Of a DNA stretch of 64,000 nt, positions 2,531 to 46,653 are shown one piece after another. This DNA is from Gemmatimonadota bacterium (GTDB lineage Bacteria; Gemmatimonadota; Gemmatimonadetes; Gemmatimonadales; Gemmatimonadaceae), in the NCBI GenBank assembly GCA_028287235.1, contig JAQBQB010000023.1, positions 62,001-126,000 on the forward strand, in the 5' to 3' direction. Numbering within the stretch: the stretch's first letter is position 1; each line of letters opens with the position of its first letter. The notes beneath the pieces were generated by a model. It ran no database searches. It saw only the letters and a list, made by a program, of their open reading frames with translations, and was not told the origin of the DNA. A program made the translations under genes and the position numbers.

Positions 2531-2540
2531 TGAGAAGACA

Positions 2541-2701
2541 GGGGCTAGGGTTTGGGGTGCAGGGTCTAGGGAAGGTACGTCGCGCCTGCGGCGCGACTCA
2601 ATGCGTGGACCGCGCCGAGTCCAAGCAAAAAAGCGGGCGCGCCCACGGCGCGCCCGCACACGTTCCCTAAACCCTAGCCCCGATACCCTAAACCCTGCCC
2701 C
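2541..2701. repeat. telomere-like heptad palindromic element T1
   Basis: Left arm GGGGCTA GGGTTTG GGGTGCA GGGTCTA GGGAAGG; right arm is inverse complement with same heptad phasing; two internal hairpins GTCGCGCC-TGC-GGCGCGAC and GCGGGCGCGCC-CAC-GGCGCGCCCGC. Confidence 0.9.
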
Positions 2702-3408: not shown

Positions 3409-4011
3409 ATGACGAAATTCGCTTCGCGACGAACAGCTCAGCTCGCTGTTGCCGTCCTTGTAACATCGGCGGCGAGCGCGTTTGCTCAGCAGCCCCAGCC
3501 CACTGCGGCGCCGGCGACAACCGCCCCAGACGTCGGCCAGATGGCGCCCGACTTCACCCTCCCCGGTGCCACTCGCTACGGGCTGCTCAAGGATCCGGTC
3601 AAGCTCTCGGACTACCGCGGCAGCACCGTCGTCGTCGCCTTCTTTCCCAAGGCGCGGACAAAGGGCTGAACCATCCAAATGGAGGCGTACCGTGATCAGT
3701 ACGCCACGCTCTTCAACAACGGGAAGAAGGTCGTCGTCCTCGGCATCAGCGTCGATGCGGACACGACTCTGAGCAACTGGGCGCGCGAATCAGGATTTCC
3801 TAATCTGTTCGCCAGCGACCCCGATCAGACCGTTGCGAAGCTGTACGGATCGGCCGATTCGAAGTACGACACCCGAAACGTGTTCATCATCGGACCGGAC
3901 GGGCGCATCGCGAGCCGCATCATGAAATTCAACGTATTGTCGGGGGACGCCTACACCGAGCTGGGAAAGGCGGTGATGGCAACGGTGAAGCCAGCGGGAG
4001 GATCGCATTAG
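3409..4011 (+). CDS. peroxiredoxin (AhpC/TSA-Bcp-like) with in-frame TGA at 3667-3669 at the peroxidatic Cys position; candidate selenoprotein
   Basis: Signal peptide MTKFASRR...AFA; APDFTLPGA...VKLSDYRGSTVVVAFFPKARTKG-[TGA]-TIQMEAYRDQY...GISVDAD...FIIGPDGRI read in one frame across the TGA (ORF track splits it into 3277..3669 and 3679..4011). Confidence 0.75.
3684..3705 (+). promoter_or_regulatory. candidate bacterial SECIS hairpin
   Basis: GGCGTAC-CGTGATCA-GTACGCC: perfect 7-bp stem, 8-nt loop starting about 21 nt after the TGA. Confidence 0.55.
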
Positions 4012-6359: not shown

Positions 6360-7448
6360 ATGATCTTCCCCGCCGAGTGGAGTCCGCACGAAGCCACATG
6401 GATCGCCTGGCCCCACCATGAGCCCGACTGGCCGGGCAAGCTCGCACCCATTCCCTGGGTGTACGCCGAGATCGCGCGCGTGCTTCACGAGCACGAGCGC
6501 GTCGAGATCGTCTGTCATAGCGACGAGGTCAAGGCCGCGGCCGAGGCGCATCTCGCGGCGCATGGCGTGCGCGAGAACTACCGGTTGCACATCGTGCCCA
6601 ACGATCGCGTGTGGCTGCGCGACTCCGGTCCCACGGGCGTCATTGGCGACGATGGCAAGGTCGCGCTCGTGAACTGGAAGTTCAACGCGTGGGCGAAGTA
6701 CGACAACTACGAGCGCGACGCGCAGATGGGCGCCGCGATCGCGCGTATCACCGGCCTGCCGCGCATCGAGCCGCGGCGTCCGGACAACGGCGAACGCGTG
6801 GTGCTCGAGGGCGGCGCGATCGAGACCGACGGCGCGGGCACGATGCTCGTCACCGAGGAGTGTCTGCTCTCGCCGATTCAGGCGCGCAATCCCGGTCTGT
6901 CGCGCGAGGGCTATGAAACGGTCTTTCGCGACGCGCTCGGCATTCGCCAGACGATCTGGTTGGGCGAAGGGTGCGTGGGCGACGACACGCACGGGCACAT
7001 CGACGACATCGCGCGCTTCACGGCGCCGGGCGTGATCGCGCTCGCGTACGAGGACGATCCGGCCGACGACGAGAATCACCGCCGCTCGGTGGACAACTAT
7101 GCGCGGCTGCAGTCCGCCGGCGGCGCGGCGGGTGCGCTGAAGATCGTGAAGCTCCCGTATCCGCGTCCCGTCATCATGAACGGCGAGCGGCTTCCGGCGA
7201 GTTACGCGAACTTCTACATCGCCAACGGCGTCGTGATCGTGCCAACCTTCAACGATCGCAACGACCGCACGGCGCTCAACACGATCGCCGAGCTATTCCC
7301 CGGACGCGAGATCGTCGGCATCCATGCCGTGGATCTCGTGTGGGGGTTGGGCACGCTGCACTGCTTGACGCAGCAACAGCCGTTGGGCGTGGGGCGTGGG
7401 GCGTGGGGCGTGGGGCGTGGGGCGTGGGGCGTGGGGCGTGGGGCGTAA
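6360..7448 (+). CDS. aguA: agmatine deiminase, C-terminus extended by GGGCGTG repeat
   Basis: FPAEWSPHEATWIAWPHHEPDWPG, WLRDSGPT, GEGCVGDDTHGHIDDIARF, GLGTLHCLTQQQP; last ~20 aa are GVGRGAW repeats. Confidence 0.92.
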   Translation: MIFPAEWSPHEATWIAWPHHEPDWPGKLAPIPWVYAEIARVLHEHERVEIVCHSDEVKAAAEAHLAAHGVRENYRLHIVPNDRVWLRDSGPTGVIGDDGKVALVNWKFNAWAKYDNYERDAQMGAAIARITGLPRIEPRRPDNGERVVLEGGAIETDGAGTMLVTEECLLSPIQARNPGLSREGYETVFRDALGIRQTIWLGEGCVGDDTHGHIDDIARFTAPGVIALAYEDDPADDENHRRSVDNYARLQSAGGAAGALKIVKLPYPRPVIMNGERLPASYANFYIANGVVIVPTFNDRNDRTALNTIAELFPGREIVGIHAVDLVWGLGTLHCLTQQQPLGVGRGAWGVGRGAWGVGRGA

Positions 7449-7736
7449 CGGCTACTAGCTACCCGCCCGTCTGACGACCGCTCTCGACCAAAGCGATTGA
7501 GAGCCTCCGCAAGCAACTCCGCAAGCAACTCCGCAAGATTACCAAACGCGTGGCCATTTTCCGATCGACGACGCCGCCACCAAATGGCAGAGTGGAAGAC
7601 CGCGGCGCGCTCCCCCACTTCGCGATTCCTGTCGGCGTGGACTAATCCCCGCCATCAGCCCTCACGCACAGAAATTCAGGTACGCCCCACGCCCCACGTC
7701 TAACGCCCCACGCCCCACGCCCCACGCCCAACGCTA
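7385..7736. repeat. GGGCGTG-heptad bounded inverted element H1
   Basis: Left arm eight GGGCGTG units plus GGGCGTA (7385-7447); right arm (about 7681-7733) is the inverted copy with seven phased heptads; ~235 bp core. Confidence 0.88.
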
Positions 7737-34490: not shown

Positions 34491-34499
34491 CCAACCGAA

Positions 34500-34651
34500 G
34501 GGTGTAGGGTTTCGGGTATAGGGTTTAGGGAAGGTACGCCGCGCCGTTGGCGCGGCTTGATGGGAAGACCTCGCCAAGGCCTAACAAAAAGCGGCGCGCC
34601 TATGGCCCGCCGCATACCTTCCCTAAACCCCATACCCTATACCCTAAACCC
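34500..34651. repeat. telomere-like heptad palindromic element T2
   Basis: GGGTGTA GGGTTTC GGGTATA GGGTTTA GGGAAGG arm, inverted arm TTCCC TAAACCC CATACCC TATACCC TAAACCC, two internal hairpins in same order as T1. Confidence 0.9.
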
Positions 34652-34662
34652 AGCGTCGTTCG

Positions 34663-35409: not shown

Positions 35410-35416
35410 CAGGCGG

Positions 35417-35567
35417 TAGGGTATCGGATTTAGGGTTGAGGGAAGGTGTGCGGGCGCGCCGTGGGCGCGCCCGCTTCTTGTTAGGGCCTTCGTGGTCCAT
35501 CCATCAAGTCGCGCCGCAGGCGCGACGTACCTCCCCTAAACCCTAGACCCCAAACCCTACACCCTGC
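35417..35567. repeat. telomere-like heptad palindromic element T3 (inverted relative to T1/T2)
   Basis: GGGTATC GGATTTA GGGTTGA GGGAAGG arm; right arm inverse complement (GGGTGTA GGGTTTG GGGTCTA GGGTTTA GGGGAGG); hairpin order reversed. Confidence 0.9.
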
Positions 35568-36937: not shown

Positions 36938-38366
36938 CGGCGTGGGGCGTGGGGCGTGGGGCGCGAAGCGCGGCGCGGAACGCGCCCCGCCGCCCACGCC
37001 CCACGCCCAACGCCCAACGCCGCACGCCGCACGCCACGAACGCCTCGTCTTCCGGCTGACCCTTCTCGCCGGCTTGCCCGGCGTGGTCGTCGCCATGGCG
37101 CTGCTCTGGCGCGGAGGCTACAGCGGCAAGGTGCAGTGGACGCTCGGCCTGTTCGTGATCGGCGGATGGATGATCACCGCGCTCGTGCTGCGCGAGCGCG
37201 TGGTGCGGCCGCTGCAGACGCTGTCGAACATGCTCGCGGCGCTGCGCGAGGGCGACTATTCGATTCGCGCGCGCGGCGCCGATCGCGAGGATGCGCTCGG
37301 ACTCGCGTTCCTCGAATCCAACCTGCTCGGCGAAACGCTGCGCACCCAGCGCCTCGGCGCCATGGAAGCCACGGCGCTGCTGCGCACCGTGATGGCGGAG
37401 ATCGACGTCGCCGTTTTCGCGTTCGACGACGGCGATCGCGTGCGGCTCGTCAATCGCGCCGGCGAGCGTCTCCTCGCGCAGCCCGCGGAGCGCATTCTCG
37501 GGCGGACCGCCGAACAGGTGGCGCTCGCCGACTGTCTGCAGGGCGCGTCGCCGCGCACCATGGACGTGACGTTCGCCGGCGGCGCGGGGCGCTGGGAAGT
37601 GCGCCGCGGATCGTTTCGGCAGGATGGACGTCCACACACGCTGCTGGTGCTCGCCGACGTGAGCAAGACGCTGCGCGAAGAAGAGCTGCAGGCATGGCAG
37701 CGTCTCGTGCGTGTGCTCAGTCACGAGATCAACAACTCGCTCGCGCCGATCAAGTCGATCACGGGCAGCCTGACGTCGCTGCTCGACCGGCAGCCGCGCG
37801 CCGCCGATGCGGAGGACGATCTCCGGCGCGGGTTGAGCGTGATCGGCGGCCGCTCGGAAGCGCTCGTGCGCTTCATGTCGGCGTACGCGCGGCTCGCGCG
37901 CTTGCCTGCGCCGTATCGCGTGCCGCTCGACGTCGCGACGTGGGTACGCCGCGTGGCGGCGTTGGAGACACGCATGCCCGTGTCGGTCGTCGAAGGCCCG
38001 CGCACTTCGGTACGGGCGGACGGCGACCAGCTCGACCAACTGTTGATCAATCTCGTACGCAACGCGGTCGATGCGTCGCTCGAGACGAACGGAAGCGTGT
38101 ACATCAGATGGGCGCGTCACAACGGTACGCTCTCGCTGATGGTCGAGGACGACGGGCCCGGCATCGCGAGCAGCGCGAATCTGTTCGTCCCCTTTTTCAC
38201 GACGAAGCCGCAGGGCTCGGGCATCGGGCTCGTGTTGTCGCGACAGATCGCCGAAGCGCACGGTGGCTCGTTGTCGCTCGACAATCGTCTCGAGGGCCGC
38301 GGGTGCGTGGCCACTTTGCGGTTGGAGACGTACGACGCTGTGAGCGCGGCCGCGAACGGGAATTAG
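36927..38366 (+). CDS. sensor histidine kinase with repeat-derived N-terminus
   Basis: Two TMs, HAMP-like, PAS, LVRVLSHEINNSLAPIKSI H-box, NLVRNAVDAS, VEDDGPGI, GSGIGLVLSRQIAEAHGG; N-terminal ~38 aa encoded by heptad repeat element. Confidence 0.9.
36939..37040. repeat. GGCGTGG-heptad bounded inverted element H2
   Basis: GGCGTGG x3 + GGCGCGA left; CCACGCC/CAACGCC/GCACGCC heptads right; internal GGGGCGCG...CGCGCCCC stem. Confidence 0.85.
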
Positions 38367-46077: not shown

Positions 46078-46081
46078 CCCG

Positions 46082-46653
46082 AGGGTTTAGGGTATTGGGT
46101 ATAGGGTTTAGGGGCTCCTGATGGATGCCGTTAGAGTTTTTTTATGATGGCCGTCAGCATGCGTTGAACTTCGCTCAAGAGGCTGAGGGCGGATTTCACA
46201 GCGGCGAGGACGGACGGATTGTCTTGGGCGATCGCGACCAGTTGCGTGTCGAGCTCTCCCGCCGAGCCGCCGGCTATCGAGAGGAATTGCTTGTAGTCTT
46301 GGCGGTGAAGACGTGCGTGGCCCTCGGCGATGTTGGATGGAATCGAGACCGCGGCGCGTAAGACCTGGCTGCCGATCTCGAAACGGTCCTGCGGGGGCAG
46401 TGCGGTGACGATGAGGTAAACTCGTCGCCGCAGCTTCATCGCCTTCTGCCAGACGATGAGGTCTCGATACCCGCGAATGGGACTCGGAGATTCGTGGCTC
46501 ATGGCGCACGCTAGGGTCGGGCGCAAAGCGCAGCGTCATCACCGGATTGCGCGCGGAGGCTTTCACAGTCCATCCATCAAGAGCCCCCGAGCGGCTTCGC
46601 CGCTCGGGGGCTCTTGCCTCCCCTAAACCCTATACCCCAGACCCTATACCCTG
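46082..46653. mobile_element. telomere-like heptad palindromic element T4 carrying an S23-type gene
   Basis: Left arm GGGTTTA GGGTATT GGGTATA GGGTTTA GGGGCTC; right arm inverse complement GGGTATA GGGTCTG GGGTATA GGGTTTA GGGGAGG; hairpin GAGCCCCCGAGCGGC-TTC-GCCGCTCGGGGGCTC; GATGGATG near both arms. Confidence 0.8.
46131..46502 (-). CDS. four-helix bundle protein (23S rRNA intervening-sequence protein family)
   Basis: IRGYRDLIVWQKAMKLRRRVYLIVTALPPQDRFEIGSQVLRAAVSIPSNIAEGHARLHRQDYKQFLSIAGGSAGELDTQLVAIAQ. Confidence 0.93.
   Translation of the reverse strand: MSHESPSPIRGYRDLIVWQKAMKLRRRVYLIVTALPPQDRFEIGSQVLRAAVSIPSNIAEGHARLHRQDYKQFLSIAGGSAGELDTQLVAIAQDNPSVLAAVKSALSLLSEVQRMLTAIIKKL

Follow-up and report, generated by a model that had tools for sequence, protein, structure and literature searches.

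The stretch of DNA analysed here (hereafter the window) is 64,000 nucleotides long and harbors four related elements, T1-T4, all located between protein genes; in the case of T1-T3, the neighboring genes are co-directional. T1 has its natural ends, CAGGG...CCCTG, at 2539-2697 and consists of two inverted arms of phased GGG tracts enclosing a series of hairpins. T2 and T3 are further full-length copies, while T4 is longer and embeds a gene (Table 1).

Table 1. Coordinates of the T elements, the parts of T1 and the GCGTGGG heptad family in the window.
Feature	Position	Strand	Description	Support
T1 left arm	2539..2571	+	five BAG-type heptad units, reading inward: CAGGGGC TAGGGTT TGGGGTG CAGGGTC TAGGG	
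T1 inner boundary	2569..2579	+	GGGAAGGTACG, conserved; recurs as GGGAACGTG at the opposite end	alignment of 22 copies
T1 hairpin A	2579..2597	.	GTCGCGCC-TGC-GGCGCGAC	
T1 central hairpin	2607..2622	.	GGACCGCGCCGAGTCC	
T1 hairpin B	2633..2657	-	resembles an intrinsic terminator, with a 3' T-run (minus strand)	
T1 right arm	2665..2697	-	inverted; CAGGGTTTAGGGTATCGGGGCTAGGGTTTAGGG on the minus strand	
GCGTGGG element, arm	7385..7443	+	second heptad family	
GCGTGGG element, partner arm	7680..7729	-	inverted	
T2	34498..34653	+	full-length, 156 bp; co-directional ABC transporter ATPase genes on either side	cloverleaf, z = -8.6
T3	35410..35566	-	full-length, 157 bp; arm starts directly 3' of the TAG stop of an ABC gene	
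GCGTGGG smaller pair	36944..37002	.	inverted pair	
T4	46081..46653	-	573-bp copy; same arms and A-end; IVP gene inside	
IVP gene in T4	46131..46502	-	four helix bundle; 123 aa from ATG; frame intact	

The letters of the T1 arms agree with those quoted in a preliminary description of this DNA, according to which the GGG tracts keep an exact 7-nt phase while the linker bases drift. In the window, 26 runs of four GGG tracts in this phase were counted, 12 of them within the GGGCGTG tandem repeat at 7385-7729, which is a separate feature, against none in 100 dinucleotide shuffles. All eight arms of T1-T4 do keep the phase, with two damaged GGG tracts in the T3 left arm (35410-35447). The drift of the linkers needs a restriction. 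The arm unit is GGGTNTA or, in an alternative frame, TAG-GGTN, and the consensus of the five units per arm reads CAG GGTN TAG GGTN TNG GGTN TAG GGTN TAG GG; thus, three out of four linker positions are conserved (GGG-T-N-T-A) and the drift concerns N, together with the last base of the second unit, which is free too. The free arm positions are 6, 13, 15, 20, and 27 and the remainder is nearly fixed, the invariance of GGG being partly built in, since the seeds required it (partner arms found by score agree). The unit types of the T arms occur in a fixed order, and the length is five units.

Two other features of the window deserve mention. The GCGTGGG inverted-repeat family, whose copies in the window embed no IVP gene, is also found at loci L043, L055, and L075 of the same genome. 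Moreover, a peroxiredoxin-like ORF on the plus strand (3409-4011) has an in-frame TGA at the expected catalytic cysteine (FFPKARTKG-TGA-TIQMEAYRD), and is a candidate for either a selenocysteine protein or a disrupted gene.

The T-Element Family

In the 5.73-Mb draft genome of this soil bacterium, probably a member of Gemmatimonadota, a covariance model covering the entire element retrieved about 58 distinct places, T1 among them. The element is, thus, dispersed, with a size of ~157 bp; the genome-wide counts rest on patterns and on this model. An arm weight matrix (score of at least 12) retrieved 79 arms in 0.86 Mb and one in the reversed control, in a stretch selected to contain matches, whose arm density is not the genome average. 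The phased GGG tracts noted in the preliminary description were confirmed. Most arms are paired head to head, and the total length is fixed at 155-159 bp.

The full-length alignment of 22 copies revealed a common order: CAGGG arm, GGGAAGGTACG, hairpin A (TCGCGCC-loop-GGCGCGA), a central sequence, hairpin B (GGGCGCGCC-loop-GGCGCGCCC), ACCTTCCC, and the inverted arm ending in CCCTG. The middle part is one of several alternative central sequences, that of the T1 central hairpin being replaced by a different one in other copies. RNA folding predicts cloverleaves for T1 and T2 (z = -8.1 and -8.6, respectively). Hairpin A has one compensatory pair change (U-A/C-G) among the copies. Covariation in the arm stem was considered and rejected, with just one compensatory pair across the entire element. 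Instead, the paired arms of an element seldom agree at positions 13 and 15 (4/50 identical versus 14.2 expected, P = 0.0005), where the expectation comes from permutation within ends, the positions were picked post hoc and the first copy set overlaps the second. As a lead only, this non-matching would point to a mismatch conserved within the arm stem; selection may act against perfect palindromes at close range, or an internal loop may be important.

Two candidate origins were discarded. A GCCTAAC motif in T2 recalls integron attC sites, but it is one-sided and missing from half of the copies. As for adenine mutagenesis of the kind known from diversity-generating retroelements (DGR), the variable positions of each arm go with its own G-rich strand, a pattern that a single template strand cannot produce; the genome has one reverse transcriptase gene (RVT_1), which lies on another contig and not in T4.

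T4 Embeds an IVP Gene

The gene inside T4 belongs to the 23S_rRNA_IVP (four helix bundle) family (PF05635, E = 3e-29; TIGR02436, E = 1e-28), with 2gsc and 2rld among its homologues. T4 is, therefore, an intact IVP gene between terminal inverted repeats, while T1-T3, lacking the gene, can at most be derivatives of such an element. Since none of the four lies in a 23S rRNA gene, they are not to be filed as 23S rRNA intervening sequences (IVS) proper. In the congener G003, the element is absent from the T4 site, the flanking genes abut, and the stop codon region runs into the next gene, the polarity of this empty site coming from one diverged congener. The genome harbors six IVP genes, and T-type arms surround only that of T4; the agent spreading T1-T3 is, thus, assigned by resemblance.

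Most IVP Genes Surveyed Are Flanked by Inverted Arms with a 7-nt Beat

As T4 carries an IVP gene, the flanks of this gene family were surveyed broadly. IVP genes are present in 47 of the 59 genomes of this bacterial family, with up to 14 per genome. The alignment of the left flank to the reverse complement of the right one (score of at least 36) revealed inverted repeats around the gene in 59 of the 69 loci that 28 genomes of the family contributed; swapped flanks gave 2.9%, and random windows of this genome 1.0% (score of at least 38). Clear inverted repeats are absent from the other 10 loci. The arms have a self-identity excess of 0.23, 0.20, and 0.18 at lags 7, 14, and 21, respectively, with the other lags at about zero or below and with flat far-flank and shuffled controls; a few arms have a period of 8, 9, or 11 instead of 7. 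A second set from other phyla (Acidobacteria, Bacteroidetes, Balneolaceae, Cyanobacteria, Firmicutes, Poribacteria, Synergistetes, and others) gave inverted repeats in 20 out of 30 loci from 13 genomes (score of at least 32; swapped flanks, 1.9%), and an autocorrelation of 0.37, 0.34, and 0.27 at the same three lags in the 19 arms used.

The sequence of the heptad varies from locus to locus, with a tendency toward BAG-N4 read inward. In this reading direction, AG is held on one phase in 37 out of 60 arms, compared with 7 for CT, its complement, and the base 5' of the phased AG is C (16), G (13), T (7), or A (1). The most frequent length of the AG run is five units (36 out of 96 arms, with four units in 11 and six in 17), and four phased AG occur in 0.5% of single windows of the outer flanks. 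Hence, the proposal that the phase is kept while the sequence varies holds far beyond this genome: the 7-nt beat is conserved across lineages, and the heptad sequence turns over, usually within BAG-N4.

The GxxExxY family, whose genes often occupy similar places and served as a control, also has inverted flanks (14 out of 28, of the CACRGAG type) with a lag-7 excess of -0.03; this implies that inverted arms are not unique to IVP genes and that, in this comparison, the 7-nt beat is specific to them. The CACRGAG repeats of the GxxExxY loci (L285-L314) are spaced by 8/9 nt, and possibly mark a second class of protein-specific, arm-flanked elements.

Distribution in Related Genomes and Insertion Sites

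The arm pattern gave no match in six congeners or in another 18 genera of the family and, within the set of genomes searched, the T family is restricted to this species. The preliminary description had also called T1 telomere-like, a comparison that does not hold, since the window lies inside a 287-kb contig and the arms are internal, dispersed, intergenic inverted pairs of a pattern not found in the congeners. The covariance model retrieved a single weak match from the congener G005 and, from other genera, weaker matches with the same plan and other heptads: GGGTTTA/GGGGCTA (G041), GGGATTA (G022), GGGTTCA (G059), GGGTCGA (G011), CAGGAGT (G055 and G077), and AGCTATC (G016). In G055, a second genus, protein-less copies share the heptad CAGGAGT with an IVP element. 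In the congeners, the T2 and T3 sites are either empty or occupied by a terminator or by another type of element with inverted arms. In another family (genome G030; loci L058, L059, L061, and L063), solitary GGGTGTA heptads occur directly before or after genes, and a clear partner arm is absent.

Plasmids of cultured Cyanobacteria offer filled and empty sites of IVP elements, with insertion at stop codons. On pNPUN02 of Nostoc punctiforme, the element immediately follows a TAG stop and is bordered on its other side by TTATGC, and the empty counterpart in Nostoc C057 reads TAGGTTATGC. Moreover, an element separates cmr2 from cmr3 in Picosynechococcus PCC 7003 (the two genes are adjacent in PCC 7002), nrdB from nrdA in Nostoc edaphicum (by comparison with Calothrix NIES-4105), and cas6 from cas4 in Anabaena sp. 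90. No target duplication was seen at these sites or at that of T4. One of the closest plasmid-borne IVP genes is that of Gemmatirosa kalamazoonensis, a named species of Gemmatimonadota.

The cas6/cas4 junction is occupied in other ways as well. A Dolichospermum plasmid (L344, 1120-1364), with flanks 99% identical to those of Anabaena sp. 90, has another palindromic repeat, GTAGGTTGGGTTGACGCAAGG..., at the position of the IVP element. In Pseudanabaena galeata (L348, 870-1600), an IVP gene lies at the same junction amid long AGCTAAA/AGCCAAA heptad arrays, apparently as an independent insertion.

Origin and Possible Function of T1

According to these data, T1, like T2 and T3, is probably a miniature that derives from an IVP-type mobile element and lacks its protein, the full form being made up of an array of about five heptads, an IVP gene and an inverted array, where the arms represent the ends of the element. 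The maintenance of the phase with quite different heptads in many phyla makes a phase-reading factor plausible, and the association of the beat with IVP genes suggests the IVP protein as its putative reader. Among the homologues of known structure, the entries 2gsc (XCC0516 of Xanthomonas) and 2rld each contain five chains, and 2gsc is a toroidal homopentamer whose function is given as unknown (PMC4990558). With five subunits, five BAG units and one fixed spacing, the simplest reading would be one unit per subunit: the pentameric ring might grip arm RNA or DNA in single-stranded form, each subunit taking one BAG, in a way akin to that of the TRAP ring on (G/U)AG repeats. The arms, in turn, could pair into a stem that RNase III cuts, as it does in 23S rRNA intervening sequences, which would allow the element to be tolerated with little harm directly behind a stop codon within a transcription unit. 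T1-T3 would have been spread in trans. IVP lacks a nuclease domain, and mobility would depend on a catalytic partner.

The T elements might instead be domesticated RNA-processing sites, kept because their cloverleaf stems, placed between the genes of one operon, would separate or end the transcripts. The predicted folds of T1 and T2, the position of T1-T3 between co-directional genes, the terminator-like hairpin B with its T-run, and the excision of the Coxiella IVS by RNase III (PMC4990558) are all in keeping with such a role, which is compatible with the mobile-element origin. However, the positions are not conserved among the congeners, where they are empty or taken by other elements, and both the 7-nt beat and the IVP gene are left unexplained; as an account of the family, we consider it doubtful.

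An ordinary MITE, with a conventional transposase recognizing the CAGGG...CCCTG ends and the IVP gene of T4 as accidental cargo, would share the fixed length, the terminal inverted repeats and the species-restricted burst. The CAGGG ends are similar to those of some IS and MITEs. Nevertheless, none of 13 clean copies has a target duplication and no arm pair was seen around a transposase in 0.86 Mb (the rest of the genome was searched for arms only). Furthermore, phased arms around IVP genes elsewhere are far too frequent for an accident, and this origin appears improbable.

The preliminary description proposed selection for a heptad pattern that is either G-quadruplex-capable or read by a protein. 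In the former case, GGG would be kept every 7 nt because the G-rich strand folds into a quadruplex. The T arms, with five GGG tracts and 4-nt loops, would suit such a structure; however, phased GGG is present in just 5 of the 59 IVP arms, whose common feature is BAG-N4, heptads such as CAGGTAT, TAGTCTT, and CAGATAT keep the beat without GGG, and the conserved linker positions T4, T6, and A7 are unnecessary for a quadruplex, so that we give this selection very little credit. Heptanucleotides are a common class among bacterial simple repeats. A slippage origin for them is among the earlier proposals cited in PMC4679880, and the arrays could then be functionless tandem expansions, inverted through chance palindromes. 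This is just as hard to credit, since the strict 7-nt arrays of this genome form seven inverted pairs and no direct one, arrays of other periods form almost no pairs, AG points inward, the T arms have a fixed unit order and a length of five, and the GxxExxY arms, likewise inverted repeats, have no phase.

Returning to the IVP-type mobile element, we tentatively advance, at somewhat less than even chances, that it represents a new class, in which the sole protein would be a non-catalytic pentameric ring reading the 7-nt beat of its own arms, and a host enzyme would move the element. If so, one BAG-N4 per subunit and five units per arm would be expected, ring and heptad should co-diverge, T1-like miniatures would be mobilized in trans, and the same beat would account for heptamer repeats and 23S rRNA intervening sequences. 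The near-universal, sequence-independent rule followed by the surroundings of IVP genes provides a concrete candidate substrate for a widespread, often multi-copy family, and the filled and empty sites of Cyanobacteria, with their cultured hosts, make binding and movement directly testable.

Comparison with Known Systems

REPIN/RAYT, Correia, ERIC, and RUP sequences are, like the T elements, dispersed intergenic palindromes with non-autonomous copies and a rare protein-coding partner. The T elements differ from them in the phased heptads with free positions and in the candidate partner, a pentameric four helix bundle protein without a known catalytic domain in place of a Y1 transposase or a DDE enzyme.

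The bAvd protein of DGRs is a pentameric four helix bundle that acts with nucleic acid and needs the adjacent DGR reverse transcriptase. It is homologous to IVP; the sole reverse transcriptase gene of this genome, on the other hand, is outside T4. TRAP, a regulator, is an 11-mer ring reading (G/U)AG triplets, one per subunit, with a spacing of 2-3 nt; its likeness to IVP is an analogy only, as the fold is unrelated and TRAP is not a mobile element.

The closest published case is the IVS in the 23S rRNA of Coxiella burnetii, 428 nt long, which harbors an S23p/IVP ORF and is excised by RNase III (PMC4990558). Like T4, it has an IVP gene between terminal inverted repeats, and it was proposed to be a selfish or mobile element (PMC4990558). 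The IVS lie in 23S rRNA helices, whereas the T elements lie between protein genes and include protein-less miniatures in a family of ~58 copies. Tandem heptamers GACAGAT, corresponding to CAGATGA in the BAG-N4 frame, precede the Coxiella ORF and were reported as variable direct repeats with no rule (PMC4990558), while heptad arms are general in the loci surveyed here. No earlier statement of the IVP-heptad rule was found in the open-access full text searched (preprints excluded), which is weak evidence of novelty; as far as this literature goes, the general rule is new and the Coxiella heptamers are its published single case.

Finally, the intergenic TAACTGA repeats of Beggiatoaceae, Cyanobacteria, and Bacteroidetes share the 7-nt unit, reach many copies and were left unexplained (PMC4679880). 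In that paper, they appear as direct repeats that precede start codons, just one repeat being indirect (PMC4679880), and a link to IVP genes was not found in its text. Their reverse complement, TCAGTTA, fits BAG-N4. The rule would link these repeats to the 23S rRNA intervening sequences and to dispersed palindromic families of the T1-T4 kind, three puzzles that have stood apart.
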